Source of the DNA: Lacticaseibacillus parakribbianus
GTDB lineage: Bacteria; Bacillota; Bacilli; Lactobacillales; Lactobacillaceae
Assembly (NCBI RefSeq): GCF_025490915.1
Contig: NZ_JANQBA010000003.1
Location: forward strand, 1 to 64,000
Length of the DNA stretch: 64,000 nt
Direction: 5' to 3'
Part shown: positions 33,740 to 58,905 of the stretch, one piece after another
Layout: each line of letters opens with the position of its first letter
Numbering within the stretch: position 1 is the first letter of the stretch
The notes under the pieces: model-generated
Databases searched by the model: none
What the model was told of the DNA's origin: nothing
Seen by the model: only the letters and a program-made list of their open reading frames with translations
Position numbers and translations under genes: made by a program

Positions 33740-35560
<1,821 letters not shown>

Positions 35561-37308: not shown

Positions 37309-37322
37309 AGGGCGGAGCCCGT

Positions 37323-37448
37323 CTGAGAGGGTGGAACGAGGCGGGTTTAGCGGGACGGGTAGCCCAGCTGTGGCACTCGGGACCAAGTTCGGGTCCCGAG
37401 TGCCACAGCGTAGCTAGCCGCTCCCGCGTTGCCGAGCGGAACCCGTTT
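37323..37448. repeat. Hairpin repeat family 1, single copy after the GntR gene
   Basis: Same frame as the 35 kb copies (GAGAGGGTGGAACGAGGCGG ... CGTAGCTAGCCGCTCCCGC ... AACCCGTTT). Here the apical stem is CTGTGGCACTCGGGACC with GGTCCCGAGTGCCACAG. The outer arms (CGAGGC versus GCCGAGC) do not pair, unlike the other copies. Confidence 0.85.
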
Positions 37449-37496
37449 AGAAGGCGGAACCGAGCGCTTAGCCGCGGCGGCGATGCCGCCGGCTCC

Positions 37497-38265: not shown

Positions 38266-39642
38266 ATGAGTCAGGCTTTACCAAAAGGTTTCTTGTGGGG
38301 TAACTCAACTTCCAGCATGCAGACGGAAGGTGGCTACAACGAAGGTGGCCGCGGTCCGTCCGTCTACGATCCGCGCGAGCAGACCGAGGAACACGGCGAC
38401 TGGAAGGTTGCCATCGACGAGTACCACCGCTACGAAGAAGACTACGACCTCATGCAGCAGATGGGCATGAACTGCTACCGCTTCCAGATCGGCTGGAGCC
38501 GCGTCTGCCCCACCGGCGACGGCGACTTCAACCAGGAAGGCATCGATTTTTACCGCGGCCAGATCAAGGCGCTGATCGCTCGCGGCATCACGCCGATGAT
38601 CTGCTTGTACCACTTCGACATGCCGCTGGCCTTGGCCAAAAAGTACAACGGCTTCTTGAGCCGCCACGTGGTCGACGCCTTCGTGCGGTTCGGCAAGCGC
38701 ATGATCGACGAGTTCGCCGACCTCGTGCCGTACTGGATTGTTTTCAACGAGCAAAACCTTTACACCACGCCTTACGCTCACGTCTACGCCGGCTGCCTTG
38801 AGGGCGGCACGGACGACCAGTCGATTCTGACCATCACCAACCACGTGATGTCGTCTCACGCCCAAATCGCCAACTACCTCCACGAAAAGTCCACCACCGC
38901 GCAGATCGGCGGCATGCTGGCCTACGAGGAGTGCTACGCGGCCACCTCGAACCCACGCGATGCCCAGTTCGCGCGTGAAATCGATGAGTTCTTCAACAAG
39001 AACCTGCTCGACGTCTACACCAAGGGTCACTACTCCAAGCAAGTGTTGACCTTCATCAAGAACCACGACATCGACTGGGACTTCACCGATGAGGACCGCG
39101 CCGCTTTTGCCCAGCTCAAAACCGACTTCATCGCCTTCTCGTACTACCGCTCCGACCTGATCGACTCCAGCAAGGTACCGGTCAACACCAACCCGCTCCA
39201 CTACCTGGACTACGGCATGGTCAAAAACCCATACACCCGCAGCAACGAATGGGGCTGGAACGTCGACCCGCTGGGCTTCCGCGACATTTTGACCAAGGTC
39301 TACAACCAGTACGACCTGCCGATGTTCCCGATTGAAAACGGGATCGGCATCCGCGAAACCTACACGGGCAAGGAGATCCAGGACGACTACCGCATCGACT
39401 ACCACCGCGAGCACATCCAGGCCATGAAGGACGCCATCTACGAAGACGGCGTCGAGGTCCTCGGCTACCTCGGCTGGGGCCTGATCGACATCCCGGCCTC
39501 CAGCGGCAACATGGACAAGCGCTACGGCGCCGTCTACGTCAACCGCACCAACACCGACCTCCGCGACCTCGCCCGGATCCCGAAGAAGTCCTTCGGCTGG
39601 TTCAAGCAGGTCTTCGAAAGCAACGGCGCAAACCTGAGCTAG
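38266..39642 (+). CDS. GH1 beta-glucosidase, probably 6-phospho-type
   Basis: 458 residues. The ATG at 38266 follows AGAGGAGACAGTCAA. GH1 landmarks are LPKGFLWGNSTSSMQTEGG, the acid/base Glu in WIVFNEQNLYT (about 164) and the nucleophile Glu in MFPIENGIGIRE (about 361). It is clearly different from the 33740 enzyme, suggesting another aglycone or linkage. It follows the GntR gene, but 957 bases of repeats intervene, so control by that regulator is uncertain. A hairpin repeat starts inside its stop codon. Confidence 0.9.
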   Translation: MSQALPKGFLWGNSTSSMQTEGGYNEGGRGPSVYDPREQTEEHGDWKVAIDEYHRYEEDYDLMQQMGMNCYRFQIGWSRVCPTGDGDFNQEGIDFYRGQIKALIARGITPMICLYHFDMPLALAKKYNGFLSRHVVDAFVRFGKRMIDEFADLVPYWIVFNEQNLYTTPYAHVYAGCLEGGTDDQSILTITNHVMSSHAQIANYLHEKSTTAQIGGMLAYEECYAATSNPRDAQFAREIDEFFNKNLLDVYTKGHYSKQVLTFIKNHDIDWDFTDEDRAAFAQLKTDFIAFSYYRSDLIDSSKVPVNTNPLHYLDYGMVKNPYTRSNEWGWNVDPLGFRDILTKVYNQYDLPMFPIENGIGIRETYTGKEIQDDYRIDYHREHIQAMKDAIYEDGVEVLGYLGWGLIDIPASSGNMDKRYGAVYVNRTNTDLRDLARIPKKSFGWFKQVFESNGANLS

Positions 39643-39760
39643 AGGGTGGAGCCGAGCGCTTAGCCGGCCGACTAGCGTAGGACTGGCGCTTGAAGCGGTC
39701 CTTGCTTCGAGTGCCAGCCCTAGCTAGACGCGTCGGCGATGCTCGGCGGAACCCGTTTAG
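39641..39760. repeat. Hairpin repeat family 1, copy after the second glucosidase
   Basis: It starts at the stop codon (TAGAGGGTGGA). The outer stem is GCCGAGC with GCTCGGC, the next GCCGAC with GTCGGC, and the apical arms GACTGGC and GCCAGTC-like, again paired although different from the 35 kb copies. It ends AACCCGTTT. Confidence 0.88.
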
Positions 39761-39766
39761 ACAACA

Positions 39767-39810
39767 GAAGAAGCATTAGCGCCTATTAGAAATCGGCTGC
39801 TAATGCTTCT
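39767..39810. terminator. Bidirectional terminator between the glucosidase and the phosphatase operon
   Basis: AGAAGCATTAGC pairs with GCTAATGCTTCT, with A- and T-runs on both sides. Confidence 0.88.
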
Positions 39811-39824
39811 TTTTTGTGCTGCTA

Positions 39825-40328
39825 TCACTTTTGCTCGCTGTCGCCGGGATACAGCGTCTGGAACAGCCCGTGCCACAGGCGATTCGGTACGTAGAACGTG
39901 TAGAAGTTCTCCCGCGTCACCGGCACCAGCCCCTCCTGAATTTTGCGGCCGGACTGCCACCGGCGAACGTGAACGCACGGCAGGCCATATTGGAAAAAGG
40001 CCAGCTCCAGCACGGCGCCGGTGCGAGACTGCCCGGCGTGGCAATGCACCACCAGGTCGTGCCCATCCGCAATCGCCTGCCGGATGAACGCATCGATGTC
40101 TCGCGCCGCGTCGACGGTCAACACGCTCGCCGGTTTGCCCGGCGTCGAGGCGACCACGTCGTCTGCGTTGATTCGCCTCACCCGGGCATATTGGCGATCC
40201 GCCGCGATTTCGGCGCTGTCGGCGACAGCGTCGAAGCTGCCGTGCAGGATCAGCACATCGGTCTGTTGCCGGTGCGGTTGAAACAGCTTGTAAGACGCCA
40301 GGTCGAGGCTGTATACCGTCGTTGTCAT
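39825..40328 (-). CDS. CX5R-type (dual-specificity/tyrosine-like) phosphatase
   Basis: 167 residues, ninth and last gene of the phosphatase operon. The ATG at 40328 is preferred over TTG 40334; GGAGGGATTTGGTT precedes it. The signature HCHAGQSRTG (Cys96, Arg102) is the active-site loop of the cysteine phosphatase superfamily. An upstream Asp (about 80-92 region) could be the general acid. The fold and length suit a small DSP-like enzyme. The substrate may be phosphotyrosine, phosphoinositide or an RNA 5' end; sequence alone does not decide. Confidence 0.8.
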   Translation of the reverse strand: MTTTVYSLDLASYKLFQPHRQQTDVLILHGSFDAVADSAEIAADRQYARVRRINADDVVASTPGKPASVLTVDAARDIDAFIRQAIADGHDLVVHCHAGQSRTGAVLELAFFQYGLPCVHVRRWQSGRKIQEGLVPVTRENFYTFYVPNRLWHGLFQTLYPGDSEQK

Positions 40329-40343
40329 AACCAAATCCCTCCA

Positions 40344-41789
40344 CTACTTGTCCGTGGTACTGCCATCGTTAGTCTGAGCCGATTTGTTTGATTGGATGGC
40401 GACTGACTGTTGAGGTCGCGCGGCCTGCGCAACCCGATGACCGTTCAGACTCACATGCTTTAGCACATCCTGAAATTCTTCGGCACTCAACTCACGGTCA
40501 CTAATTGTCCGAGGCGTGGCCTCCCAGTCGTCAACATGCATGACCATCACGAATGCGCCAGGCACTTCGATTGTCATTCCGAATGCGGCCACACGTTTAT
40601 GCCGTTCTCTTATCGCGTCGGGGACTGGGTCCGGAATGATAAGTAATTGTCCATGTCGGTACCAACGGAACGGCGCCTGCAAATGCCGCATGCCAACGTA
40701 ATAATCGCGATTAACCGTCATATAACTCAGCGTTTCATCGCTCAGTCTCAGAAAAGCCCCGTGGACCTTCTCCGGTAATGAAAAACCTTGCCACCGGTCT
40801 TCAGCACGTGGCACTAGGTAGCGCTGTTGAACGGCGTCAAGAAACGCCCGTTCAGCAGCGTTGTAATTGTCCTCGTACCCAACTATTGAAAAGCGACTCG
40901 GATCACGAACCAGCGCCTGCAGAACGTCCTCGAATGTCGCAACATGATTGGGGTGCGGCTTTGCTCGTACCCCTCCCAAGTAATAATGGTAGGTTAGGCC
41001 CCCATCAATTCGTTCAAGCCCATAGCGTGTTGTCCCCGTCGCAGTGAATCTGAACCAATCCATCGGCTCGCCGTTCCAGTGAACATTATCACGCAGCCAA
41101 GCCACTTCGTCATCCCGCAAATCCGATAGTCGCTTGACCGGCACTTCCCAGTCCTCGCAATGAAGGCACAGAACGAAGTCGCCAAGAATTTTCAACCTCT
41201 GACCCAAAATGGTCAAGTGTTTCCCCCAGCGCCTCCTGCTTGGAAGTGGGTCTGGAATTAGAATGACGTTACCGTGCCGATACCAATGAAACGGCGGCTG
41301 CACGACCCGAAAAAACGGGTTATAATCGCGCGATATTTGGATTCTGCCCATGATTTCTTCAGCGAGGATAATTCCCTGTAGCCGTTCAGGAAGCAAAAAT
41401 CCCTGCCACCGATGCGCATTCGGCGTCACAATGTGTTGTTGTCGAACACGGTCTAACGCCGCCAGCTGTTGCCTACTGTACGAAGCCTCAAACCCTTGAT
41501 AGGAAAAAGTCAGCGGATCACGTGCCGCGTCGGTCACAACCGCTTCAAAAGAATGCCCGTATTCGTGTCTGCGGGTACCGTCAGCCGATTGGATATCATA
41601 CGGGTAGACGAAGCCAATGGCTAACCATTCACTTAGCACCCACTCGAGGGACCCGGACTCAATGCCAACCGATCCTTGAACACCCCAACTCCGCAGTAGC
41701 TTCGAGTAGTGAGGAAATAACTTGCCTCTAAAAACACGACGCTCGTACCATCCGCACAACCTCCAGTACCATTGAGTAAGCTTATTCAT
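40344..41789 (-). CDS. Unrecognised 481-residue protein with an internal duplication
   Basis: ATG after GGAGGGTGTGA. Two similar halves are visible. RWQGFLLPERLQG, ISRDYNPFF, PPFHWYRHGNVILIPDPLP and GDFVLCLHCEDWEVP in the first match RWQGFSLPEKVHG, VNRDYYVGM, APFRWYRHGQLLIIPDPVP and GAFVMVMHVDDWEAT in the second. There is no signal peptide and no membrane segment, so it is probably cytosolic. I do not recognise the family. Conserved HWYRHG/FRWYRHG and PDP motifs could form a binding surface. It sits as eighth gene between a metallophosphoesterase and the CX5R phosphatase. Confidence 0.75.
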   Translation of the reverse strand: MNKLTQWYWRLCGWYERRVFRGKLFPHYSKLLRSWGVQGSVGIESGSLEWVLSEWLAIGFVYPYDIQSADGTRRHEYGHSFEAVVTDAARDPLTFSYQGFEASYSRQQLAALDRVRQQHIVTPNAHRWQGFLLPERLQGIILAEEIMGRIQISRDYNPFFRVVQPPFHWYRHGNVILIPDPLPSRRRWGKHLTILGQRLKILGDFVLCLHCEDWEVPVKRLSDLRDDEVAWLRDNVHWNGEPMDWFRFTATGTTRYGLERIDGGLTYHYYLGGVRAKPHPNHVATFEDVLQALVRDPSRFSIVGYEDNYNAAERAFLDAVQQRYLVPRAEDRWQGFSLPEKVHGAFLRLSDETLSYMTVNRDYYVGMRHLQAPFRWYRHGQLLIIPDPVPDAIRERHKRVAAFGMTIEVPGAFVMVMHVDDWEATPRTISDRELSAEEFQDVLKHVSLNGHRVAQAARPQQSVAIQSNKSAQTNDGSTTDK

Positions 41790-41852
41790 TCACACCCTCC
41801 AACTCGTCGCAGTGCCATCGCAACCGACGGGCAGTCTGAACGATTGCCTCGA

Positions 41853-42686
41853 TTAAGATTGCTGCTCCCACCACCCCGACTGGTCCGGATGCCGCTGACT
41901 GACCCGCCGCTGTGCCTCGCGCAGCTCTGGCGCCGGAATTGCGTCCAAAACCACACTGGCAAGCTGACGCAACCCGTCATCCCGCTTGGCAGCGGCTAGG
42001 CGGCACCCAACGTTTTCCAACAGCTCAGCCGCCAACGCCACGACCACGGCCCGGCAACATGCCTGATTGAGGCTCTCGACTTTCTCCGGACAACTTTGCC
42101 GCGTCATTGGCCTACCGACAAGTGCCTCACTCAAGGCGCCTAACTCGAGAAGCTTGGCTCGCCACTGCGCGGTGATGCGGTCTTCAACCTGCGCAACGCT
42201 GAGCGGTGTGTAGTCAATTTCGCTCGCCCCGACATTCACTGCATTCGGCGTCAACACCCGGCGAAAGTAGGACCTTCGCTCACCGTGGACGTGTCCATAT
42301 AATAGTCGCTGATGATGCCACATCCCCGGATAATCTAAGACCGGGTAGTGACAAAGCTGGTAACGCAAGTGATTTTCCTTGAAGCTGATCAGCTGCGTGA
42401 TTTGCTCGAATTGCTCAGAAGCAACGCCACAATCGGCCAAAAAGCGGTCGTGATTGCCTCGAACCATCACCTTGCGACCAGGCAGCTGCGCGAGAATAGT
42501 CTGTGCGTAGGCTGCATCCTTCAATGTGAAGTCGCCCAGAATGTACACGATGTCAACCGGTCGAACCACCCGCCGCCAATTGGCAATCAGCGCAGCGTCC
42601 ATCGCCTGAACATCTGAAAATGGCCGGCGATCCGCTTCGATGGTCGCCACGTGGCCAAAGTGCAAATCTGCGATAACATACCTCAT
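41853..42686 (-). CDS. Calcineurin-like metallophosphoesterase with extra C-terminal region
   Basis: 277 residues. The ATG at 42686 follows GAGGGG. Motifs in order are ADLHFGH (about 5), GDFTLKD, GNHDRF, CHYPV and YGHVHGE. The pattern differs from the other four in the operon and resembles the YfcE/YmdB-like side of the superfamily. After the catalytic domain (about 1-170) come about 100 helical residues with CCRAVVVALAAELLENVG, which the others lack. Two metal ions and phosphoester hydrolysis are expected; the substrate is unknown. Confidence 0.82.
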   Translation of the reverse strand: MRYVIADLHFGHVATIEADRRPFSDVQAMDAALIANWRRVVRPVDIVYILGDFTLKDAAYAQTILAQLPGRKVMVRGNHDRFLADCGVASEQFEQITQLISFKENHLRYQLCHYPVLDYPGMWHHQRLLYGHVHGERRSYFRRVLTPNAVNVGASEIDYTPLSVAQVEDRITAQWRAKLLELGALSEALVGRPMTRQSCPEKVESLNQACCRAVVVALAAELLENVGCRLAAAKRDDGLRQLASVVLDAIPAPELREAQRRVSQRHPDQSGWWEQQS

Positions 42687-42693
42687 TTTCCCC

Positions 42694-43503
42694 TCAATTC
42701 TCGGCGTCCTCGATTGCCTCAATCAGCTCCCCCGTGTCGGCGTCCAAAACCGCAATGTTCGGCAGGCGACCGGCCGGACCGCCGTGTAACCCACCGTCGA
42801 TAAAGAAGCGGGGATATTCGCCTTCATACTGAACGGTTAGAATGCCATGGGGGCTCGCGACCCGGTTGCGCCGCGTAGCCGGAGCCGCAACGCCGTCATA
42901 CACCCCCGTAATAAGTGAAGTTGGTGTATGCCCTGAGATGACGCTGGCACTCAGGGGATTATGTGCCCAGTTGGGTGCCTTAGGGCCATACCAGTATTCC
43001 TCGCGCAGCCAGTACTGATCCTGTCGTGGGGTCAATGCCACTGGGTCGATCAGCGTCAGGTTGAACCCAGCGTGAACAAAGAGGAGTCGCCCAATGCGCA
43101 AGTGCAGCGGCAGCCCGGCCAGCCACACCAGCAGCCGACCATAGCGCTGCCGAACCCGCGCTAACGCCTCGGCCATGCTTGCCGGTGGTCGGATATCTTC
43201 GGCAACACATTCGAGAATGAGGTCCTCGCCTTCCGCGTCGAGCCAGTAGGTGTTTTGACCCTGCATGCTTTCGACCAGGGCGGCGTCGTGGTTCCCTTGA
43301 AGCGCAAAAATCCGGTCAGGCTCATCACGCTGCATCCGATAAATCGTCTCGGCCACCTTCAAGCCCGTATGGTGGTGATAACTATCTTGGTAGTCGCCAC
43401 CAAAAACGACCGGCGCCGCAGGATACTGGTTTCGCACCTCGGCCAGCAGCGGGAAACTCATCACCTGGCCGTGCAAATCGCTCAGTGCAATGACTGGTCT
43501 CAT
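42694..43503 (-). CDS. Calcineurin-like metallophosphoesterase (ApaH/PrpE-like)
   Basis: 269 residues. ATG after GAGGCGGTTTGAG. Metal motifs: SDLHGQ, GGDYQDSYHHH, GNHDAA, VHAGFN and ISGHTPTS. It is a clear paralogue of the 45772 protein: both share (L/W)LR(G/E)xYWY and end in a NIAVLDADTGELIEAIEDAE-like tail. An insert of about 40 residues follows the GNHD motif. The family removes phosphate from phosphoproteins or cleaves dinucleoside polyphosphates. Confidence 0.85.
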   Translation of the reverse strand: MRPVIALSDLHGQVMSFPLLAEVRNQYPAAPVVFGGDYQDSYHHHTGLKVAETIYRMQRDEPDRIFALQGNHDAALVESMQGQNTYWLDAEGEDLILECVAEDIRPPASMAEALARVRQRYGRLLVWLAGLPLHLRIGRLLFVHAGFNLTLIDPVALTPRQDQYWLREEYWYGPKAPNWAHNPLSASVISGHTPTSLITGVYDGVAAPATRRNRVASPHGILTVQYEGEYPRFFIDGGLHGGPAGRLPNIAVLDADTGELIEAIEDAEN

Positions 43504-43516
43504 CTCAAACCGCCTC

Positions 43517-44977
43517 TCAGAATTGCCCCCGCATCACGACCTCCTGATCGGAGAACCGCTTGCGAATGTGCAGCGCGTAGCCCTTGCCCTCGATTTCCAA
43601 ATACCTAATGGTGGTCGTGTTGGAATCCGCCAGATTAACCGCTGCGACTTCTCTGTCGGCATTACTTAACACCGTGTGATCGAACTGATTGCGATGACCG
43701 TGAATGGACACAGCCCAATCAATCTCCTCGCTTTGAGTCCAGGCCATGTCGATGTCGCGATCGTATGCCGTGGTCCCAGGTGCTTTTGCGCCGTAAACAA
43801 ACACCTCGGTGGGAGCCAGCGCGATGCGCAAGCCGGTCACCGATTTAGCACTCCACTCCGCAACCAGCCCTGGTTCCACTCCGGCATGACTCATAAGCAA
43901 CTTACGCATCCGATACTTCACCGCGTGGTACGTCCCTAGGCCGCCAATGAAAGCCTGGACCTCCTCGGTCGTGATGCCTGCCTCCGCGAACTGCGTCACC
44001 GTCTCCTGCTCAATGCCGCCGGTCATCCCGCGGCCTTCCACCAACGCCTTGCGAAGCGCCAGTTCATGATTCCCGCACAGTAAGCGAAGCCGATTAATCT
44101 GCGACGTCAAAAGCTTAAAAACGGCCACGTTCTGGGGGCCGCGATCAAAATAGTCGCCAAGCAGGGTAATATCCGAGTGTGGATGGGCCGCTAGTATCTC
44201 CGCAAGATCATCCGCATCCCCGTGAACGTCGCCGATAATGAGTAGCGGTTGGTCGTTGGTGCCAAAATCGGAGTCGGTTCTCGCACGTTGGAAGCGCAGC
44301 GGCTCATCTACCTCGGCGAAGAACTGCTCAGGCGTCAGTGCCTCCCATTCCTGATCGGCCCAAGGGGCGTTATCGTAACGATCCAAGGCATCGAGAATGG
44401 CAGTCTCACCGCCGATAACTTTGGAGATGGTTCCTGGAAAACGCTTGTCCAGCCGCCGCTTCAGCAGTTTGATGGCGCCTTGGCTCGCTTGGACGTGGTA
44501 ATCGCTGCCGTTGACCGTCATTCGGTCCTCCAGCCACTCCCGAATTGGCACGCCCTCCTTTTCGGCCTCTTTCATCGCATCACGAAGCGTCTGCCACTCC
44601 AATTGCTCGCGGTTCGCGGCCAGCAGTGGTGCTGCAAAGTCGACCAGGCGAATCTGATAGCCCAGGGCCGGATTGAGTTGCCTCAGCAACTTCAGCCCGT
44701 GCTTGCCAGTCGCACCCAGGACAACGGTCGGATCTCCCGCCTCAAGTCGCAGCATCAACGCTTTTTCGAACATCTCCCGAGCGGACTTGGCCCCGGCCTT
44801 GCTGTAAGCCAGCTTCACCTTACCCTCGCCATCCAACTCAAGCTGTGGCGCCCCGGTCGCCGTCCGAAAAGCCGCCGCACTGACGCAATAATCGGTCAAC
44901 CCGTGGTCGGCCAACGTTTTGCTTACTTCCTGCCCCGGTAAATCCACGATGACATAAAGAACGCGTGTCGTTTCCAT
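43517..44977 (-). CDS. PNKP-like fusion: degenerate kinase-like domain plus metallophosphoesterase
   Basis: 486 residues. The ATG at 44977 follows AAGGAG. Residues 245-470 form a PP2B-type phosphatase: GDVHGD (249-254), GDYFDRG (274-280), GNHELA (302-307), SHAGVEPG and IHGHRNQ. Residues 1-200 follow the plan of polynucleotide-kinase P-loop domains: VLYVIVDLPGQEVSKT, AREMFEKALMLRLEAGDPTVV, GYQIRLVDFAAPLLAANREQ, VPIREWLEDRM. The Walker A loop is altered (PGQEVSKT, not GxxxxGKS/T), so kinase activity is doubtful. Bacterial Pnkp enzymes repair RNA ends with kinase, phosphatase and ligase domains; no ligase is visible here. Confidence 0.8.
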   Translation of the reverse strand: METTRVLYVIVDLPGQEVSKTLADHGLTDYCVSAAAFRTATGAPQLELDGEGKVKLAYSKAGAKSAREMFEKALMLRLEAGDPTVVLGATGKHGLKLLRQLNPALGYQIRLVDFAAPLLAANREQLEWQTLRDAMKEAEKEGVPIREWLEDRMTVNGSDYHVQASQGAIKLLKRRLDKRFPGTISKVIGGETAILDALDRYDNAPWADQEWEALTPEQFFAEVDEPLRFQRARTDSDFGTNDQPLLIIGDVHGDADDLAEILAAHPHSDITLLGDYFDRGPQNVAVFKLLTSQINRLRLLCGNHELALRKALVEGRGMTGGIEQETVTQFAEAGITTEEVQAFIGGLGTYHAVKYRMRKLLMSHAGVEPGLVAEWSAKSVTGLRIALAPTEVFVYGAKAPGTTAYDRDIDMAWTQSEEIDWAVSIHGHRNQFDHTVLSNADREVAAVNLADSNTTTIRYLEIEGKGYALHIRKRFSDQEVVMRGQF

Positions 44978-44988
44978 TTTGTTCTCCT

Positions 44989-45750
44989 TCAGTCCTGTTC
45001 CAGAAGTACCCGCACCCCATCTTCGCACAGTTCTTCGTAGCGCTTGCCCCGAACCCGTAGAACCGGAACAACGTGGCTTCTCAGCGTGGTCCCGTCGATA
45101 TAAAAATGGCTCTTGCCGTCGCAGTAGAGATGCCCCTCAAAGCCACGGTCCCCGGCCACCTCTGCGGCGCTGACGTGACCCGCAATGATGATCTTGGCAA
45201 ATCTGCCTGTTGTCGCCGGATACTTGCCGGTCAGAACCTCATCCGGCGTCCCCATGCGCCACCACGGACCGGCCGCCTCGTCAATTCCGGCGTGAACTAG
45301 GATTTGCGCATCCAATTCCGTGACGAGTGGTCGTGATTGCAACCAGGTCAAAAGCCTTCGGTGATGCGCAAGCAACGCTTGGCGAACCAGCTGACGACTC
45401 TGCTGCACGTTGGCCTGCATCGCTTGCAACAATGCCTGCCACTGGTCCGGTGAAAAGAAGCTCAGCGTCGTCTTGAATTGGACGTCTTGGGTCAGCCAGT
45501 CCAGCGTATCCTCACCAAACAAAAAATCCAGAAACATCGCCTCGTGATTACCCAGCTGAACCGTAACCTGGTTCGACCTCTTGGCGAGCTCAAAGGCGCG
45601 TTGCAGACAGCCGTAGCTGTGCTCACCACAATCAATCAGGTCCCCGAGGATGTAGCACGTGGTCTTCGGGTCAGTGAACAGAATCAGCGCAAGTGCCGCG
45701 TCAAAGGCGGCCAAGTCACCATGAACGTCACTGAGACAATAAAGTGCCAT
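44989..45750 (-). CDS. Calcineurin-like metallophosphoesterase
   Basis: 253 residues. ATG 45750 after GGGAGG; a TTG one codon earlier is less likely. Motifs: SDVHGD (about 7), GDLIDCGEHS, GNHEAMF, VHAGIDE and IAGHVSA. The DCGE variant replaces the usual DRG. An Arg/Gln-rich helical insert (about 110-140) separates GNHE from the later His motifs. The eleven-base gap to the next gene and shared strand put it in the phosphatase operon. Substrate unknown. Confidence 0.85.
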   Translation of the reverse strand: MALYCLSDVHGDLAAFDAALALILFTDPKTTCYILGDLIDCGEHSYGCLQRAFELAKRSNQVTVQLGNHEAMFLDFLFGEDTLDWLTQDVQFKTTLSFFSPDQWQALLQAMQANVQQSRQLVRQALLAHHRRLLTWLQSRPLVTELDAQILVHAGIDEAAGPWWRMGTPDEVLTGKYPATTGRFAKIIIAGHVSAAEVAGDRGFEGHLYCDGKSHFYIDGTTLRSHVVPVLRVRGKRYEELCEDGVRVLLEQD

Positions 45751-45771
45751 CAAAGCCTCCCATCGACTCTG

Positions 45772-46596
45772 TCAATCCTCCACCGCATCCATCAACAGCC
45801 CAGTCTCGCTGTCAAAGACCCCAATGTTGCCGAGCAAACGCGGGTCGCGGCCGCCTGCCCCGCCATCAATCAGGTAACGCGGCGGCTCGCCGGGATACTG
45901 AATGGCGTAGATCGGGTTGCGTGGTGAAGCTAACTTGGCGGCTCTAACGTCGCCGTGGTAACGTCCCGCTATCATCCCCGTGGGGGTGTGACCTGCAACC
46001 ACGGTGCGGCCGAAGCGATTGTGATCGAATACCTGCCAGTTGTTTGGGTCATACCAGTACCCACCGCGCAGCCACAGATAGTCGGCAACGGTGCTGTCCT
46101 CAAAGGGGTGATTGCTGGTCTGATCGAGGCCGGCGTGAACGAACGTCAGCCTGCCAACCGACCAGCTCATCGGCAATGCGGCGGTCCAATCGAGTAGCGT
46201 CGGTTCCCGGGCGAGCAACGCCTGCCTCACTGCCAGCGCCAGTTGCTCACTGGCATACGGCACCTCACGGGTTGGCGATAGCCCCAGCCGCTTCGCCTCA
46301 GCGGCAAGTGTGGCTGCCCCACCGTAGTGCAACCAATCGCGCTTGGCAGGGTCGCTGAAAAACGATACGGCCCCGTATTCGTGGTTGCCCATCAAAGCCT
46401 TGGTGTGAAGCGGGTCGGCCTCCTCAATCGCGCGAATTTCCGCCAGCAGCGCCAACCCGGGATTGTCGTCACCGAAGCAGTCGATGTAGTCCCCGATGAA
46501 CACCGTCGTCGCCTCAGGGTATCGGGCCTGAACCCTGCGCAGGCGCGGCAATACCGCGAGCTGACCGTGCAGATCCCCCAATGCGATAACGATCAT
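45772..46596 (-). CDS. Calcineurin-like metallophosphoesterase (ApaH/PrpE-like)
   Basis: 274 residues. ATG after GAGGGGGTTGCGGG. Motifs: GDLHGQ (7-12), GDYIDCFGD (about 35), GNHEYGA (about 70), VHAGLDQ and VAGHTPTG. It shares YLWLRGGYWY and a closing NIGVFDSETGLLMDAVED-type tail with the 42694 protein, so the two likely arose by duplication. Expected to bind two metals and hydrolyse phosphoesters in the cytosol. Confidence 0.86.
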   Translation of the reverse strand: MIVIALGDLHGQLAVLPRLRRVQARYPEATTVFIGDYIDCFGDDNPGLALLAEIRAIEEADPLHTKALMGNHEYGAVSFFSDPAKRDWLHYGGAATLAAEAKRLGLSPTREVPYASEQLALAVRQALLAREPTLLDWTAALPMSWSVGRLTFVHAGLDQTSNHPFEDSTVADYLWLRGGYWYDPNNWQVFDHNRFGRTVVAGHTPTGMIAGRYHGDVRAAKLASPRNPIYAIQYPGEPPRYLIDGGAGGRDPRLLGNIGVFDSETGLLMDAVED

Positions 46597-46611
46597 CCCG
46601 CAACCCCCTCA

Positions 46612-46914
46612 TCAACTTTCATCCGTCAAACACCGGCCCAGGAGGCTGGCGGGTTCTGCCAAAATGCGCTGGACCGTTCGCTGATGGTGTGGTGGCAGTG
46701 CATCCAGTGGCACATGCAGCGCCGCCAGCTGCCACCAAGCGGTTGTCTCAATTCCACACTGTCCACATGTCCGGGGACTGACAACCCCGAATGTGCCCAG
46801 CCGCGGTGGGTAATCCCAGCCGTCGTCGAAGGCTTCCTCCGGCGTTGCGTAGTGAGCGACTCGGCCACAGTGCTCGCATACATACGCCATTCGTGCTAGT
46901 TCTTCCGCCGTCAA
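46612..46914 (-). CDS. Small protein with two CxxC pairs (zinc-ribbon-like)
   Basis: 100 residues. It probably starts at a TTG (46914) overlapping the upstream stop (TTGA), with GAGGG nearby; ATG 46893 is an alternative. CEHCGR (about 13) and CGQCGIE (about 49) would bind one zinc ion. Between them is a DDGWDYPPRLG segment. Zinc ribbons of this size often bind nucleic acid or act as protein adaptors. I do not recognise the family. It is the second gene of the phosphatase operon. Confidence 0.72.
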   Translation of the reverse strand: MTAEELARMAYVCEHCGRVAHYATPEEAFDDGWDYPPRLGTFGVVSPRTCGQCGIETTAWWQLAALHVPLDALPPHHQRTVQRILAEPASLLGRCLTDES

Positions 46915-47561
46915 TCGTCATCCCTCGTTTCTGTCAGAATGAGCCGCCAATGCGCGACGTCAATGTCATACAGACCATCCTCGGCTACCACTTGCGGGGT
47001 GGGACCCAGGAATAACGGTCCCAGCGGTCGCAACTGAATGCGGTCCTTCAGCGACTCAATCTGATCCAGCAAGTCGTACGAAAGGTACAACCCGCCGCCC
47101 AGCCGAGACACTTCGCCGACGAAAAAGGAACCAATAATTGGTTCCAAAAAAGTCTGGCTTGGGCCGTATATTTTAGCCGGCAGTTCCGAGACCTGCTGGT
47201 AGAGTTGATTAGGTGCGGTGAGCTGCACCGCGGTGACCGCATCGTTGCTCTTGACGTTAGTGCGGTTGCTCGCAATGAAGAGCTGTCCATTATTGATGGG
47301 CACAGCCCCTTGTGGAATGTTAAGGCAAGGTTGAAGCCAATGTTCCGCCGAATTGATCAGGACATCGCGTGGCCACGGACTACGGGTCTGCCCCACAATC
47401 TCAGAATAGTCCAAAAATGCTCGCCGTACGTATAGGTTCCCCCCCGTGCCACCATTGGCGTATAACTGCCATTCCGAACTCGGCGGGGTCTCAAACATCG
47501 TAAACTCAAGCACATTCGTGTCGGGCAGGGTGACAGTGTTGCCATCAACGCTAATTGCCAT
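46911..47561 (-). CDS. Unrecognised 216-residue protein, first gene of the phosphatase operon
   Basis: ATG 47561 is chosen because GGAGG lies nine bases upstream; ATG 47567 would be only three bases from it. The sequence starts MAISVDGNTVTLPDTNVLEF, is beta-rich, and has SEWQLYANGGTGGNLYVRRAFLD and FFVGEVSRLGGGLYLSYDLLD. It has no signal peptide and no membrane segment. No family recognised. Its place behind the strong promoter and its four-base overlap with the CxxC gene make it part of the system. Confidence 0.72.
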   Translation of the reverse strand: MAISVDGNTVTLPDTNVLEFTMFETPPSSEWQLYANGGTGGNLYVRRAFLDYSEIVGQTRSPWPRDVLINSAEHWLQPCLNIPQGAVPINNGQLFIASNRTNVKSNDAVTAVQLTAPNQLYQQVSELPAKIYGPSQTFLEPIIGSFFVGEVSRLGGGLYLSYDLLDQIESLKDRIQLRPLGPLFLGPTPQVVAEDGLYDIDVAHWRLILTETRDDD

Positions 47562-47624
47562 TCGCATAGGCCTCCATGATTGACTGGAACACGGGCTCAT
47601 CGGTCAATGCTGGGGTGGTTCAAC

Positions 47625-47651
47625 GAGGGCGGGAGTGAGGTACCCCGCCCT
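47625..47651 (-). other. Hairpin in the 5' leader of the phosphatase operon
   Basis: AAGGGCGGG pairs with CCCGCCCTC across nine bases, starting about 18 bases into the transcript predicted from the promoter. There is no U-run, so mRNA stability or leader control is more likely than termination. Confidence 0.5.
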
Positions 47652-47675
47652 TGATGAAGCCATCCAGCAAGAGTC

Positions 47676-47703
47676 ATTATACGCGGCTGGATTGTTTTGT
47701 CAA
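47676..47703 (-). promoter_or_regulatory. Strong sigma-A promoter of the phosphatase operon
   Basis: TTGACA (47698-47703) and TATAAT (47676-47681) are both perfect, 16 bases apart, on the minus strand, about 115 bases upstream of the first ATG. Confidence 0.85.
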
Positions 47704-47727
47704 GTTTATGTCCATATATTATGTGTT

Positions 47728-48273
47728 TTAACTTTTTATCGTAAGATTACGCAATTCGATCTTCAACTGCTTCATCAGCATTTCGACGGTCGCTTGCCGG
47801 CCCGGGGCGGTCATGGCCAGAATGGCCTGGGTGTATTGGTCAATCAGCGAATCGAGGGCATGGGCGTCTACCGTCGGCACCACCATTTTTTTCGGCATCA
47901 TCTCGGCATCGAAGTACTTGATATAGGCGGCCTTCAGCAGGTAGCTGATTTGTGTTCCACGTTTGAGAATGTTTGCACCCAGTTCTTGCCGAATCTGGAC
48001 ATTCAGATCATCAAGTTCTTTTTGAATCTGAGTCTCCAACGGAATCTGAATCTTGATAGCCGATGGCTTGAGGTCAAACTGCTTCAGCTCGGGCAGTGCG
48101 TAGTCACGAATGGCTGCCCAGTCGCCAGGCATCACCCAAGACGCGTCCTGATAGGCCGCAGTCAGGGTATCGGCCTTGCTGAAGCTGACACCGCGCTGTT
48201 GCTGATAGTAATCGCTCATAAACGCCAACAAATTGGCAGTTTCCAGACTCACCCGAGCGCTAAAATTTTGCAT
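47728..48273 (-). CDS. Helical 181-residue protein of unknown function
   Basis: ATG after CGGAGGTTCTC. The sequence is mostly helical: LLAFMSDYYQQQRGVSFSKADTL near the start suggests a ribbon-helix-helix-like or adaptor segment, and QIQKELDDLNVQIRQELG is a likely coiled coil. No signal or membrane segment. It lies just upstream of the phosphatase operon promoter on the same strand and could be its regulator, but that is speculation. Confidence 0.7.
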   Translation of the reverse strand: MQNFSARVSLETANLLAFMSDYYQQQRGVSFSKADTLTAAYQDASWVMPGDWAAIRDYALPELKQFDLKPSAIKIQIPLETQIQKELDDLNVQIRQELGANILKRGTQISYLLKAAYIKYFDAEMMPKKMVVPTVDAHALDSLIDQYTQAILAMTAPGRQATVEMLMKQLKIELRNLTIKS

Positions 48274-48290
48274 GAGAACCTCCGAGTATT

Positions 48291-48833
48291 TTTCCCCATT
48301 TTACCACCAGGGGAGTGGCGGCGGCTAGTGACGAAGGAAAGCATGGCGGGGGCCCGCAGAAAAACTAACTAGATTTGAAACCTTGAAAATGGTCAACGGG
48401 GCAAGATGTCTCCTGCTCGATGAAAAATAAACGTTTTGGAGGAACCTAGTATCTTCCATTCGCGAAATATAGACGTCATTTTCATTGGCTCTGCATTGAA
48501 ACCGATTCGGTATTTATCTGATGTCGCTTGGTAATCTCTGATTCCAGTGATACTCAAATATTAATGATTACTAGTTCGAGCTCGAAGCGTTTCAATTTTG
48601 ACAGAGCACAATTTAAGCCTCATCTTATTTTGCTCAACGAACATGCTTAGAAAACATAGCTAAGGTGATTATCTTGCCGAACCCGATAGCAACCACTCAT
48701 TCGTAATGGATAGTCAATATTGGTGTTATGCTAAGCAAGAATACTGTGCCTCATAGTTCGCTTGATTTCGTTTATTTGCTCACATTAAAAATTGAATTTC
48801 TATGATATATACTCATACGTTCAGTAGTACCTG
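48291..48833. other. AT-rich gene-free stretch
   Basis: About 540 bases at the left side of the low-GC island. No ORF of note, and no clear terminator or repeat. Base composition changes sharply near 48360, consistent with a transfer boundary. Confidence 0.5.
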
Positions 48834-49757
48834 CTATTGGAGTAAACTATCAATTACGCTCCGCTTACATTTCCTGTAACGGATAATCAGATCAAGATAT
48901 TCCTGGATGCGGATCTCACCACCGCTTATAATCGGCTTACTCCCGCTTACGACCATATCATTAATAAGATTACGATCATTAATAAGAAACATCTGGTTGC
49001 AGTAATCCTCTAAATTTTCGAACAGATTTAGAAAATTCAATAATTGGATTTCATTACCTCTTCCGTTGGATATAACAAGAAACTCTTTTCTCCCTTTTTC
49101 GGGTACTTCTGAATCGTTTTTAGTGTTATTTTTCCACTCATAGTAATAGCTAAGGATGGATATTAGCGTATCCTGGCGATCAAGTTGCTCTCCACCCATT
49201 CCAATCCCCGACTCAGAGACGCGAACAGATCCTTTCAAGTTATTCATTGAACCAGATCTAGGCATTAGACTCATGTTGATTAACGTATGATTTTGCAAAT
49301 GAAGCGTCATAAGTTGATTTAGCAAGCTATTGGAATCTTTTAGTTTACCAGATTCTGTATATTGGACTAGCTTCTCGTCCTTAAAATTAAAATCCGTATC
49401 ACCAGCCAACTTATCTGTATATTGGACTAGCTTCTCGTCCTTAAAATTAAAATCCGTATCACCAGCCAACTTAAATGAAGGACCAAGTTTAGTTTCGTCT
49501 GACTTGCTTCGGCCACTTTCCGTTATGCCGAGCACAAAAGCCAGCCGCGAATATCCTTTTGAATAAAACCTTTTTGTTTTGTTCAAGTTCAAAGCAAACA
49601 GATCATTGAATTGGTTGCCTACCTTATTCCAATGTGCTGAATAAATCTTTTGAAAATATTTTAACGCCTCCGGCGAAGAATCAGGATCGAATAAATATGT
49701 TTCGTTCTTAAATTCCTGCCACTCTTTAATTGTTTTATCAATATTTCGAGAGATCAA
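48834..49757 (-). CDS. Unrecognised 307-residue protein with an exact internal duplication
   Basis: TTG start at 49757, seven bases after GGAGG. AT-rich compared with neighbours. SLMPRSGSMNNLKGSV and FLINDRNLINDMVVSGSKPIISGG look like conserved blocks of phage- or defence-associated hypothetical proteins (DUF6994-like at best; low confidence). KLAGDTDFNFKDEKLVQYT occurs twice in tandem through an exact 60-bp repeat, which probably adds a recent insertion to the normal fold. It forms a two-gene unit with the upstream gene. Confidence 0.65.
   Translation of the reverse strand: MISRNIDKTIKEWQEFKNETYLFDPDSSPEALKYFQKIYSAHWNKVGNQFNDLFALNLNKTKRFYSKGYSRLAFVLGITESGRSKSDETKLGPSFKLAGDTDFNFKDEKLVQYTDKLAGDTDFNFKDEKLVQYTESGKLKDSNSLLNQLMTLHLQNHTLINMSLMPRSGSMNNLKGSVRVSESGIGMGGEQLDRQDTLISILSYYYEWKNNTKNDSEVPEKGRKEFLVISNGRGNEIQLLNFLNLFENLEDYCNQMFLINDRNLINDMVVSGSKPIISGGEIRIQEYLDLIIRYRKCKRSVIDSLLQ
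49354..49473 (-). repeat. Exact 60-bp tandem duplication inside a gene
   Basis: 49354-49413 and 49414-49473 are identical. The frame is kept (20 residues added). Identity suggests a very recent slippage or recombination event. Confidence 0.97.
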
Positions 49758-49799
49758 TTACGTGCCTCCTAGCCAGAACTCACTTCAACATTTTTACGC

Positions 49800-50690
49800 C
49801 TATAGTTGACGAATCTCTTTATCTCTTTGTTCTATCTGAGAAATCATATTTTCAAGACAGAGCATAAGTTCATCATGAGACTGTGGCAACACTGAAATAC
49901 TTATTGTAGAAAAGTCCCGGTCTGGGGACTCTATCATCTGATCAAACCGTTCAAAATGCATAGGAAAGAGTTCTTTAGGTTTTCCATTTGAATCAATCAT
50001 TGCACTCAGTCGATTCTGAACTACGAAATCTTCCCAACCCTCAAAATGATCTAGCCAAGCAGTAACTGTTCTAAAGCTCATCCCATACATCTGTTGAAGC
50101 ACAATACAATTATATTTGAAGTACTCGTCTATTGCATGAAGAAATAAATCTGCGTAATCTCTAGTTAAATACATGCGTCCAGTATTTATCGAATGCATTC
50201 GATGTCCGTAAGATATATTATGTCTTGACAATCCAAACTCGGGCAGGATATTCCCTATCGTATGATTCACCTCTGCAAAGCTCTCCAATAATTGCCACAC
50301 CTCCGACGGCAGCGGAAACTCGCGAAAATGATCAGTTATACCATCTCCCAAAGTTTTAATGTGAGCTTCACTACAGAACTCCTCAAAGGTTTCTCTGGAT
50401 AGCTCGATAATGAGACTCTGACGGAAAGTGGTCCAAAAAGAATGTAGGATATCACCACGCCACCAATCTCCGCTTGGCTCGATAAGCTGATACTTGGCCG
50501 TGGCACCCGGCTGAAGTGACAACCGTAAAGGGCGAAGAAATAGATAATCCTGTTGGAGAAGCCCCATTACACTTTGACTGACGTCAACATCAAAATCAGT
50601 GAAGTCGGACTTGAACTTGAACGTTAACAATTTTTCAATTGGATCTGGAATACTTTTCAAAAACGTCAATTGATCCTTGAAATCTTCCAT
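49800..50690 (-). CDS. Unrecognised 296-residue protein of the AT-rich island
   Basis: ATG 50690 is chosen because GGAGG lies five bases upstream; ATG 50702 precedes it. Soluble and mainly helical. Segments such as GDWWRGDILHSFWTTFRQ, MHSINTGRMYLTRDYADLFL and a C-terminal helix LENMISQIEQRDKEIRQL are visible. No family recognised. It is 42 bases from the next gene and has the same GGAGGCAC ribosome-site context, so they are co-expressed. The foreign base composition suggests transfer, perhaps an abortive-infection-type pair (speculative). Confidence 0.65.
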   Translation of the reverse strand: MEDFKDQLTFLKSIPDPIEKLLTFKFKSDFTDFDVDVSQSVMGLLQQDYLFLRPLRLSLQPGATAKYQLIEPSGDWWRGDILHSFWTTFRQSLIIELSRETFEEFCSEAHIKTLGDGITDHFREFPLPSEVWQLLESFAEVNHTIGNILPEFGLSRHNISYGHRMHSINTGRMYLTRDYADLFLHAIDEYFKYNCIVLQQMYGMSFRTVTAWLDHFEGWEDFVVQNRLSAMIDSNGKPKELFPMHFERFDQMIESPDRDFSTISISVLPQSHDELMLCLENMISQIEQRDKEIRQL

Positions 50691-50702
50691 ATGTGCCTCC
50701 AT

Positions 50703-51145
50703 GCCGATGTGAGATTTGAATCATTGCACACTTACACGATTAATCTAGCACGCAGACATTCCGATTTCAATCCGCAGTCAATTTTTTTTGGCTATTTTTG
50801 TGTGCCTATAAAATTAAGTCTGAAGATGACGTTGTTCTCATTCTTGTGGCAAATATTGCGACTGCGTCATCGGATTGACGTCGTACCTACTTGTCTTCAG
50901 CTTGGTCTACCACCCAAAAGAGCCTTCTGCATCACCGATAACCTCGACCGCGTCCTGCGTGGCACCTGACGAACTCAAGGTGCCACCCCACTGGCACTAC
51001 GCATTCGCCACTTCGCAGATCACCCTTGGATGTTGGCAACTCACTGAAAGACCCGTCACTGATGTCGCAGCCTACCACAAACCACAGCTGATCGGTTAGT
51101 TCAGACTCCATCACTTTTCCCGCTTCCCGCCTTCGCACCAGCGCA
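50703..51145. other. Gene-free stretch upstream of the AT-rich island
   Basis: It should contain the promoter of the two-gene island near 50740-50830, where the sequence is AT-rich, and then returns to host composition. No gene, RNA or repeat recognised. Confidence 0.4.
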
Positions 51146-51185
51146 AACAACCCGCCTGGTATATCACTACCGCAGGCGGGTTGTT
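51146..51185. terminator. Terminator between the island and the P1B ATPase gene
   Basis: AACAACCCGCCTG pairs with CAGGCGGGTTGTT. It lies about 80 bases past the ATPase stop. Confidence 0.8.
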
Positions 51186-51267
51186 CTCGTGTCAACTGTA
51201 ATTCATCTGTAATCTGCGCGAACGCGGTTCACGTCCGATGTCTATCACCGATTCGCTGCCAATCTAC

Positions 51268-53099: not shown

Positions 53100-53128
53100 A
53101 TTATAATGGTTCTAATCTAGCTTGTCCA
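53100..53128 (-). promoter_or_regulatory. Promoter of the P1B ATPase gene
   Basis: TGGACA (53123-53128) and TATAAT (53100-53105), 17 bases apart. The -35 box lies inside the end of the upstream gene. Confidence 0.7.
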
Positions 53129-54299
53129 GCTCGATTGTCACCGGCCAGGCGACGGTCCCCGCCGCCGCCAGCGTCCGGATGCGGTTGAACAGCAGCAGCA
53201 GCCAGCCGAAGCCGATCGCAAACCCCTGAATCTCAAACGCGGTCAAAGACGGCCAGCGAAAAATGCGAAACCCCAGGTTCAGCGCCATCAGAATCGCCCC
53301 GGCGGCGTAGGAGCCCCACAGGAACTCGCGGGTCACGCCGGGCAACAGCCACCGCAGCCCGACGATCAGAATCGTGATCATCGTCACCAGCATCCCCGCC
53401 ACCTCGTCGTGCAACAGGTGCCAGGCCGCGTCGTTGGGGAACACCCCGACCAGCCCGAGGTCGATGGCAATCAGCGTCAAAATCACGCGCAGCGCCGTCA
53501 GCCGCCAGTTGTGCGGGTACTTCGCATGCAGCAGCACGAACAAGTAGTCGATCAAGGCGATCATGAGCAGCGCCGACATCAGTAGCGTCAGGTTGAACTG
53601 CCAGGCGTTGCTGGCCATGGTCGTGCCCAAAAAGCTCAGGTTGTACTGCCACCACTGGCGCTGCCCGTTGGCCGCCATCGAGATCACGACCCCGGCGATG
53701 ATTACCACGGTCAACAGCATCGTCAGGGCCCGGGCGTCGATGGTCAACGCCGCCCCCACCATGAACGCGTTGGCGATGGTCAAAAACACCATGAACACCA
53801 GGGCCGCGGTGATGCGGTCGAACGACGCGCCGGGGAACATCTGGCCAAACACCCAAAACAGGCCGACCAACGACTCCCCTAAGATCACGACAAAGGCCAA
53901 CAGCACCGCCGGTAGGTTGCGCCAATACAGCCTTGGCGCCAGGCGGTCCGCGCTGTCCTTGCGGTTTTTAATGAAGAAACCGGCGAACAAAAGCGTCCCG
54001 GACACCAGGCCGCAGCCGATCACGAAGCTGGCGATCGAGTAATCGCCGCCGGTCAGCCACAACACCGGGTAGCCCTGGCTGAGCCAGTACAGGTAGACCC
54101 CCAGCGTCACCACCGCCGACACGATCAGCGGCCACACCAGAAACAGGCCGCGGCTGCGCAGCCGCTCGGCCTGTGGTGGGCGAATCACCACCTGGTTGTT
54201 GTCCACCACCAGCTGCATCTCCGTGCCGGCGTCAACGCCCAGCTGCTGACACACCACGGCCGGCAGCCGCACGGTCTGCCGCGTTACTTTATCTTGCAT
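53112..54299 (-). CDS. AbrB-like domain fused to a DUF998-like membrane protein
   Basis: 395 residues. ATG 54299 follows GGAGGAG; the GTG at 54311 precedes it. Residues 1-50 form a SpoVT/AbrB-type swapped-hairpin domain (RQTVRLPAVVCQQLGVDAGTEMQLVVDNNQVVIRP). Eight to ten membrane helices follow, in a pattern like DUF998. The AbrB part normally binds DNA or acts as an antitoxin, so here a DNA-binding-type fold appears tethered to the membrane. Function unknown. Confidence 0.75.
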   Translation of the reverse strand: MQDKVTRQTVRLPAVVCQQLGVDAGTEMQLVVDNNQVVIRPPQAERLRSRGLFLVWPLIVSAVVTLGVYLYWLSQGYPVLWLTGGDYSIASFVIGCGLVSGTLLFAGFFIKNRKDSADRLAPRLYWRNLPAVLLAFVVILGESLVGLFWVFGQMFPGASFDRITAALVFMVFLTIANAFMVGAALTIDARALTMLLTVVIIAGVVISMAANGQRQWWQYNLSFLGTTMASNAWQFNLTLLMSALLMIALIDYLFVLLHAKYPHNWRLTALRVILTLIAIDLGLVGVFPNDAAWHLLHDEVAGMLVTMITILIVGLRWLLPGVTREFLWGSYAAGAILMALNLGFRIFRWPSLTAFEIQGFAIGFGWLLLLFNRIRTLAAAGTVAWPVTIELDKLD

Positions 54300-54583
54300 A
54301 AGCTCCTCCACTCCCGAGGCGAACCCCTCTTGCTCACATTATAACGTATTCGGCCGCACGGTGGCACCGGGGTCAAGACCGTGTCGCGGGGCCGGGCGGC
54401 GGGATTGCGTCGCTGGGGCCGGTGTCGGGTCGCTCGCAATAACGTCAGTCGAATGACACGGCCTGTCACCGAAGACCACCGGCAGCCGAATGCCGGACGG
54501 GGTCGGTCGCCAGCGGCTACGGCCCGGCGAAGGACGGGGCCGAGCTCGCCCCCTCCGGTGAGCGAACCGCACCGACGGCAAAC

Positions 54584-55805: not shown

Positions 55806-56030
55806 GTGAGCGGCGGAGGAGCCGCCGGGAGTCCGTTCGGGCTCCGCGGTGCAACGCCAGCGCTAGGCTAGCCGACTCGCTAAATTCGCGCCGCGCCACC
55901 CTCTCTAACGCGTTCCACCGAGCAACGCGGGTGCGGCTGGCTACGCACCGCCACTCGGGACGAAGACCACGTCCCAAGCGTCGGCGCTAGGCTAGCCGAC
56001 CCGCTAAAGGCGCTCGGCTCCACGCTCTAA
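55806..56030 (-). repeat. Hairpin repeat family 1, one full and one partial inverted copy
   Basis: Read on the minus strand, the full copy (56030-55909) opens at the Hsp20 stop with GAGCGTGGAGCCGAGCGCC and closes GCTCGGTGGAAC. Its outer stem CCGAGC/GCTCGG matches the 39.6 kb copy. The partial copy (55908-55806) starts AGAGAGGGTGG, carries GGCTAGCCTAGCGCTGGCG and then diverges. Confidence 0.82.
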
Positions 56031-58476: not shown

Positions 58477-58495
58477 TTTATTTTCTCCCTTGTCT

Positions 58496-58513
58496 ACGCT
58501 GGCAGGCAGTGAC
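58496..58513. repeat. 18-bp direct repeat, copy 1
   Basis: ACGCTGGCAGGCAGTGAC, identical to 59340-59357, just upstream of int. Confidence 0.95.
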
Positions 58514-58530
58514 TTGGGTAAATCTAATGG

Positions 58531-58905
58531 CTAGTTCTCTTCTGGTTCTACCATCGACTTAACAACGGTGCGCATTGTGCTTATCTGTTGGCTAGTCAGA
58601 GCTTTTCTTTTCCAACTGTAAGCAACATCATCTGTTGCGAGGTCTACACTCTTCACCTTTTTTGGCTTATCCGCGGATGCTTCCTTGAGCATTTTTTCAG
58701 AGTTCACTCGTTTTGCAACCTTGGTCTCTGGATACTGATTAAGCGCCCACATGATTGCATCCATTGACTGGCGCTTAGGTTCTCGCGTGCCATTTTCATA
58801 TGACTGAATAGAGGATAGGGACAACCCCGCCGCCTCTGCTAGGTCTTTCTGAGTCAGTCTTCTACTTGCTCGCATTGACTTAATCAATTCACCGGATTCA
58901 CTCAC
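58531..58905 (-). CDS. Phage XRE-family repressor (CI-like, short)
   Basis: 124 residues, GTG start after GGGAGGTGCAGAA. An N-terminal HTH (about 5-60) contains RLTQKDLAEAAGLSLSSIQSYENGTREP. The remainder is Lys-rich, with no peptidase catalytic Ser/Lys pair, so it is not a self-cleaving CI. Divergent from the excisionase-like gene across 146 bases. It probably represses the rightward early promoter. Confidence 0.85.
   Translation of the reverse strand: MSESGELIKSMRASRRLTQKDLAEAAGLSLSSIQSYENGTREPKRQSMDAIMWALNQYPETKVAKRVNSEKMLKEASADKPKKVKSVDLATDDVAYSWKRKALTSQQISTMRTVVKSMVEPEEN

Follow-up and report, generated by a model that had tools for sequence, protein, structure and literature searches.

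The stretch of DNA analysed here, 64,000 nucleotides (nt) from Lacticaseibacillus parakribbianus (contig NZ_JANQBA010000003.1, positions 1 to 64,000; hereafter the window), carries a nine-gene operon, p1 to p9, that is rich in phosphatases and includes p5, a relative of the RNA-end enzyme Pnkp with a degenerate kinase domain and no ligase domain (Table 1). A first-pass annotation, made from the sequence alone, had described nine minus-strand open reading frames (ORFs) in this order, five of them calcineurin-like, one with a CX5R motif, one with two CxxC pairs and two unrecognised, and this inventory held in full. The ORF list gives the same genes in the same order, and all five calcineurin-like products (p3, p4, p5, p6 and p7) match the Pfam family Metallophos above its curated cut-off, with the motif blocks present. 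The CX5R loop of p9 reads HCHAGQSR, the CxxC pairs belong to p2, and the unrecognised products are p8, which matched no known family, and p1, for which Pfam, NCBIfam, PADLOC and PHROG-type profile scans gave no family match and a search of 150 genomes returned only its own genome. For five metallophosphatases to fall by chance in a run of nine genes, the union-bound probability is 7e-8 to 1.5e-5 when 10-25 such enzymes are placed randomly among 2700 genes, numbers that were assumed and not counted. The annotation had recognised no housekeeping operon of this kind, and none of the Pfam, NCBIfam or PADLOC results indicates an operon already known from metabolism or defence; the scan against PADLOC-DB 2.0.0, which covered 10 window proteins and excluded the 307-aa (amino acid) and 300-aa ORFs, gave no convincing match, with three weak hits at E 0.012, 0.03 and 0.041. 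Phage defence, which had also been raised, is kept here as a possibility only.

Table 1. Positions in the window of the operon, its expression signals and the neighbouring features
Feature	Coordinates	Strand	Description
Nine-gene operon p1-p9	39825..47567	-	order p1 to p9, from the ORF list
p1	46911..47567	-	218 aa, orphan, ATG after GGAGG
p2	46612..46914	-	100 aa, two CxxC pairs, zinc-ribbon-like
p3	45772..46596	-	274 aa, calcineurin-like phosphatase, Metallophos 4.2e-10
p4	44989..45753	-	254 aa, calcineurin-like phosphatase, Metallophos 5.8e-9
p5	43517..44977	-	486 aa, degenerate polynucleotide-kinase domain and Pnkp-type phosphatase domain, no ligase domain
p6	42694..43503	-	269 aa, calcineurin-like phosphatase
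p7	41853..42686	-	277 aa (289 from TTG 42722), phage-type phosphoesterase, phrog_547 2.8e-39
p8	40344..41789	-	481 aa, two tandem A-B units (A-B-A-B)
p9	39825..40334	-	169 aa, CX5R (DSP/PTP-like)
p0	47728..48273	-	181 aa, recurrent island neighbour, no convincing Pfam match
307-aa ORF	48834..49757	-	AT-rich, distantly related to the SLMP protein found in related islands
300-aa ORF	49800..50702	-	orphan, AT-rich, no known family
Sigma-70 promoter	47676..47703	-	TTGACA-16-TATAAT, consensus match 12/12
Imperfect dyad	47650..47704	-	two 19-nt arms, 79% complementary, flanks the -10 box
Leader hairpin	47608..47669	-	26-nt arms, 77% complementary, begins at the expected transcription start
Bidirectional intrinsic terminator	about 39768..39811	both	13-bp and 3-bp stem, T-rich either side
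Variable block	40329..51265		absent from G006, 168 bp in its place

The spacing of the genes, at their preferred starts from p1 to p9, is a 4-nt overlap followed by gaps of 15, 18, 11, 13, 7, 63 and 9 nt, which is tight overall, as first described, except that the gap between p7 and p8 is longer than the 7-21 nt given there; the start of p7 was placed by inspection at ATG 42686, with TTG 42722 as the alternative. The promoter, called perfect in the first pass, does match the consensus throughout; the scan gave 6 sites where 3.8 are expected by chance, and the remaining five score 9/12. The dyad around its -10 box is, at a guess, a candidate operator, and the 110-nt leader has a folding energy of -43.8 kcal/mol (z -2.95). 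At the other end, the bidirectional terminator proposed earlier proved to be a strong one, a 72-nt stretch giving -31.9 kcal/mol (z -7.0 against 200 shuffles); its loop is long, and it is absent from the output of the automated terminator scan.

Both domains of p5 are homologous in sequence to those of Pnkp and stand in the same order, and the fold also matches, the N-terminal domain having the P-loop kinase fold. All metal motifs of the phosphatase domain are intact, and ApaH ties with Pnkp as its closest fold. Judged by its sequence, p5 is a protein that descends from, or shares descent with, Pnkp. The enzyme known from bacteria and Herelleviridae phages joins kinase, phosphatase and ligase domains, whereas p5 stops after the phosphatase domain, and its kinase domain has lost both the P-loop GxxxxGK[ST] and the invariant Asp, which is catalytic in the Pnkp kinase. 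The same losses, of kinase residues and of the ligase domain alike, are found in all four copies of p5 that lie in islands of this type (described below), and a kinase-dead p5 was found in islands only (4/4 copies); the P-loop is kept in all 21 phage, plasmid or full-length relatives that we read. A search with p5 alone across 150 genomes gave one full-length match besides its own genome, in an island (G119), and most of the 21 matching genomes aligned by a short phosphatase stretch only. A profile with rows from G000 and G119 independently recovered an island copy in G254 and, outside any island, a full-length Pnkp in G370. The latter (L144 5684-7879) is a 731-aa Pnkp-RNA ligase with an intact P-loop on a bacterial contig. 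Among the viral relatives, for which 15 of 80 loci were read (L205-L218 and L225, some near-identical), a KxNG-like ligase motif lies downstream in 13; L215 ends at a contig edge, and L225 has none by pattern. Scanning the species-genome collection with p5 alone gave 136 pattern-matching stretches and no relatives.

Repair of the Pnkp type combines 5'-phosphorylation, 3'-dephosphorylation and sealing (PMC4411300). We looked for RNA ligases in ten genomes, namely eight island genomes (3 of the 4 with p5), G006 and G004. Neither PF09414 (control positive in 6/14 genomes) nor RtcB (PF01139; control positive in 9/14) was found in any of the ten, the window's genome included, and the phage-ligase family PF09511 was likewise absent from the same ten, in a search in which all 14 control genomes were silent and G370, the single positive among 12 genomes overall, was the sole positive control. 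As no recognisable ligase is present in these genomes, the p5 phosphatase feeds no known sealing step there. The annotation's leading idea, a system acting on nucleic-acid ends and possibly serving repair, thus stands in its first part, given the relationship of p5 to Pnkp, and is not supported as stated in its second, given the lost kinase residues and the missing ligases. The loss of the kinase residues in all four copies, with only the phosphatase kept next to four further metallophosphatases of a variable island, points to a use for hydrolysing RNA ends or phosphate signals without repair. What our results suggest is an island for the processing of broken RNA ends or phosphate signals, and not for RNA repair. 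The type of phosphatase in p5 and the missing RNA ligase would also suit a helper of RNA decay, in which clean-up of 3'-phosphates lets 3' exonucleases clear toxin-cut RNA, as protective stress biology and not as defence. The EEP-fold proteins of related islands speak for such a role, but the patchy distribution suits conflict better than housekeeping and the presence of as many as five enzymes would go unexplained, and we consider this explanation improbable.

The remaining calcineurin-like products resemble phage proteins as well, and every enzyme of the island belongs to a known superfamily. The NinI-like phage phosphatase family phrog_246 is matched by p3 (4e-15), p4 (6.9e-19) and p6 (2.3e-13), and also by p5, within the p3-p6 range of 2.3e-13 to 6.9e-19. 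Differences from this family are that p6 and p4 share no more than 23-33% identity with phage proteins among the matches listed, that p3, p4 and p6 lack the arginine of DRG, and that here a set of paralogues shares one operon; p3 and p6 are 40% identical to each other, and p4 is more distant. PPP-type protein phosphatases carry the signature GDxxDRG, in place of which p3, p4 and p6 have GDYIDCF, GDLIDCG and GDYQDSY, respectively. Matches to ApaH models, below cut-off, were obtained for p4 and p5, and the solved structures matched by the phosphatases include PP2A, PP1 and ApaH. The phosphoesterase p7 has relatives in 1381 of 50,697 phage records and differs from phrog_547 in a C-terminal extension, which the G016 copy shares; phage relatives exist for p4, p5, p6 and p7.

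These similarities raise the possibility that the phosphatases hit signalling nucleotides, as ApaH-like enzymes, or phosphoproteins, as NinI-like ones, and so quench kinase signals of phage or host, with p5 minor or repurposed. The ApaH and phrog_246 matches, the CX5R motif of p9, the structural matches to PP2A and PP1, and the equal standing of ApaH and Pnkp as fold matches of the p5 phosphatase domain are all consistent with such signal quenching. The absence of GDxxDRG from p3, p4 and p6 is not, however, and among the genes of the block none could be recognised as encoding a kinase or nucleotide synthase; moreover, retention of a dead RNA-kinase fold in all four p5 copies would be left unexplained. 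We regard this explanation as rather unlikely, and prefer one in which RNA ends are among the targets.

Relatives of the operon's genes occur together elsewhere in the Lactobacillaceae. A p3/p6 profile run against 84,980 species genomes gave 79 distinct loci from the best 80 of 106 relatives, 12 of them lactobacillus loci with E < 1e-26. Multi-gene islands surround five of these 12, in Levilactobacillus hammesii, L. enshiensis, L. fuyuanensis (at a contig edge), an uncultured Lactobacillus and Lactiplantibacillus pingfangensis, and lepA adjoins four of the five; at a sixth locus, in Companilactobacillus nodensis, a p3-type gene adjoins METRN. Other searches added island loci in G012, G281 (beside lepA), G016, G017 and G372, which brings the total to eleven with the window included and C. 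nodensis excluded. The islands are assembled from p0, p2, p3, p4, p5, p6, p7, A, B, SLMP, METRN and EEP-fold proteins, and gene order differs among genera. Counting as independent only genomes without a row in the query, the A-domain profile (rows from G000, G043, G119, G254 and two named loci), which matched 7 of 301 genomes, gave three independent matches, two with a phosphatase gene nearby (G281 and G372) and one without (G194). The METRN profile, supplied by G012, matched 3 of 110 genomes, and both independent matches, G016 and G017, lie beside other island parts; the B-domain profile returned no genomes besides G000 and G012, which had supplied it (2/301). A single-protein search with p8 found two other genomes of 100, both with islands. 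No match to the operon was found among 72,556 plasmids (megablast), nor any to p8, p1, METRN or SLMP, and METRN against viral contigs gave 30 pattern matches and no relatives.

Neighbouring genes offer some indication of what the unrecognised domains do. The B gene of G012 overlaps its p4 gene by 4 bp, and further islands have small A genes next to p6, p3, p4 or p5 and a B gene next to p3. Since A and B genes pair with phosphatase genes in this way, we infer from their sequence context that A and B, and with them the A-B units of p8, are predicted phosphatase partners. In G017 (L203 7941-9383), one gene joins METRN repeats to an EEP domain (0.00013, under the Pfam cut-off) and adjoins a p2 homologue (53% identity) and a weak B-domain match (8.6e-4); there is no calcineurin-like gene within the 16 kb read at this locus. 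Another METRN-like protein, of 451 aa and with no Pfam match, lies at L177 9763-11118. In G372 (L198 1202-3367), genes for an A-domain protein, a p7-like phosphoesterase and a tyrosine integrase are consecutive on one strand, possibly as a mobile unit. Upstream of the operon, p0 appears by eye to consist of two ribbon-helix-helix units and would be a candidate regulator, likely DNA-binding.

The annotation had placed the operon among accessory genes, which agrees with the state of the same site in G006, a member of the same genus with matching near flanks (85-91% DNA identity). There the operon is absent and about 170 bp separate a P-type ATPase gene from p9, whereas the window has a 10.9-kb block with p8 to p1, p0 and the 307-aa and 300-aa ORFs. 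That the block is missing from the corresponding position in a close relative is what would be expected of a mobile island, the comparison being one in which gain and loss are not polarised; no terminal repeats or integrase of the block's own were seen. The p9 gene is a resident adjoined by the island and not an original member of the operon, because G006 has p9 without the block; the two proteins are 89% identical. The extent first given, 39825..47703, needs amending at both ends, as p9 is not an original member and the feature reaches about 51265. The phosphatase-family matches of p9 lie below Pfam cut-offs (DSPc 25 bits, 1.8e-5, against 33.5; Tc-R-P 25.6 against 27; PTP-SAK 19.1 against 27), and a search of 150 genomes found p9 relatives in 4, including its own. 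In G004 a p9-like piece has a p3-like gene (55%) as its neighbour at a different site, and the p9-p3 neighbourhood is thus not unique.

One may postulate that such a block is a collection of cargo whose members share no function, in which phage-like genes gathered at recombination hotspots and were kept by chance or for the sake of one member. Gene order that is not conserved, AT-rich orphan ORFs, an integrase 6 kb away, the phage relatives of p4, p5, p6 and p7, and repeated use of the site beside lepA would all be expected in that case. The single promoter and tight spacing would not, however, and neither would the presence of the same families together at different sites in several genera or the METRN-EEP fusion. 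Clades restricted to islands also argue against it: in a tree of 31 proteins, which omits L038, L039 and L182, the p6 clade (7 members) and the p4 clade (5 members), each with a bootstrap of 100, hold island genes only, although the p4 sample is biased, as all five members came from islands located by other queries. Of the explanations considered, we find this one the least probable.

Our preferred reading, which we hold tentatively and with somewhat less than even confidence, is that a recombining, phosphatase-only conflict island acts on RNA ends through p5 as well as on further phosphorylated targets, and may do so to counter RNA repair by phages. The dead kinase domain of p5 would still recognise broken RNA ends, and p5 would strip 2',3'-cyclic or 3'-phosphates but neither add a 5'-phosphate nor seal; the remaining phosphatases may take phosphates off further ends, nucleotides or proteins, steered by the A and B partners. 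The net result would be that broken RNA is committed to decay, or that ends needed by a phage repair enzyme are spoiled, and the benefit would lie in conflicts, with phage or RNA-cleaving toxins, and not in metabolism. For an island capable of dephosphorylation only, the roles that fit are, in order of preference, end-spoiling, signal quenching and decay. The operon is compact and its host a lactobacillus, and the central prediction is that p5 would strip ends without kinase activity. Weighing against the recurrence of these genes as a set, p3/p6-family genes occur in 21 of 301 genomes and are commonly single, the phosphatase gene is solitary in 10 of 11 further loci fetched (a choice from 25 places), and the p3 clade of the same tree mixes island and solitary genes. 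The co-occurrence that the annotation had proposed as a check is accordingly borne out in part: parts of the operon do stand together in other lactobacilli, and the p6 clade (7/7) and kinase-dead p5 were seen in islands only, but gene order varies and p3-type genes frequently stand alone.

In the textbook account, phages counter host anticodon nucleases by repairing tRNA with polynucleotide kinase-phosphatase and RNA ligase. A more specific form of the preferred reading would have a captured phage RNA-repair enzyme, its kinase disabled and its ligase discarded, serve within a combinatorial multi-phosphatase island as an anti-repair defence that blocks phage repair of RNA cut by host nucleases; we consider this distinctly unlikely, and our searches turned up no description of such a strategy. 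Jumbo phages encode phosphoesterases of several folds for which RNA ends and nucleotide signals have been proposed as targets, and these sets are phage-borne and generally accompanied by RNA ligases, whereas the present set consists of phosphatases only and lies on a 233-kb bacterial contig (PMC7824862). Literature searches, at the level of titles and abstract openings, did not find such an island described; as far as these searches reach, a kinase-dead, ligase-less Pnkp and a recombining phosphatase-only island with A and B partners are undescribed.

The remainder of the block is distinct in composition, with a G+C content of 37-43% across the 307-aa and 300-aa ORFs against 53-61% in the operon (1-kb windows). 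An SLMP profile built without the 307-aa ORF matched it with a whole-sequence E of 4.8e-5 (best single stretch 0.018), and within this ORF an exact 60-bp tandem duplication, KLAGDTDFNFKDEKLVQYT twice, occupies 49354-49473. In two related islands, flanking pairs of ORFs (425/447 aa and 258/201 aa; L028 4071-6125 and L202 6516-8607) were noted, and their larger members are related at 3.2e-199. Outside the block, imperfect G+C-rich intergenic repeats of about 120-180 bp occur at 35200-35560, 37311-37470, 39641-39760 and 55846-56029 and match several places in the same region of G006. A 399-aa protein at 53112-54311, conserved in G006, combines a MazE-like N-terminus (5.8e-5, just under cut-off) with DUF998, and about 6 kb past the block a tyrosine integrase and a helix-turn-helix regulator (57202-58905) possibly belong to a second mobile element.

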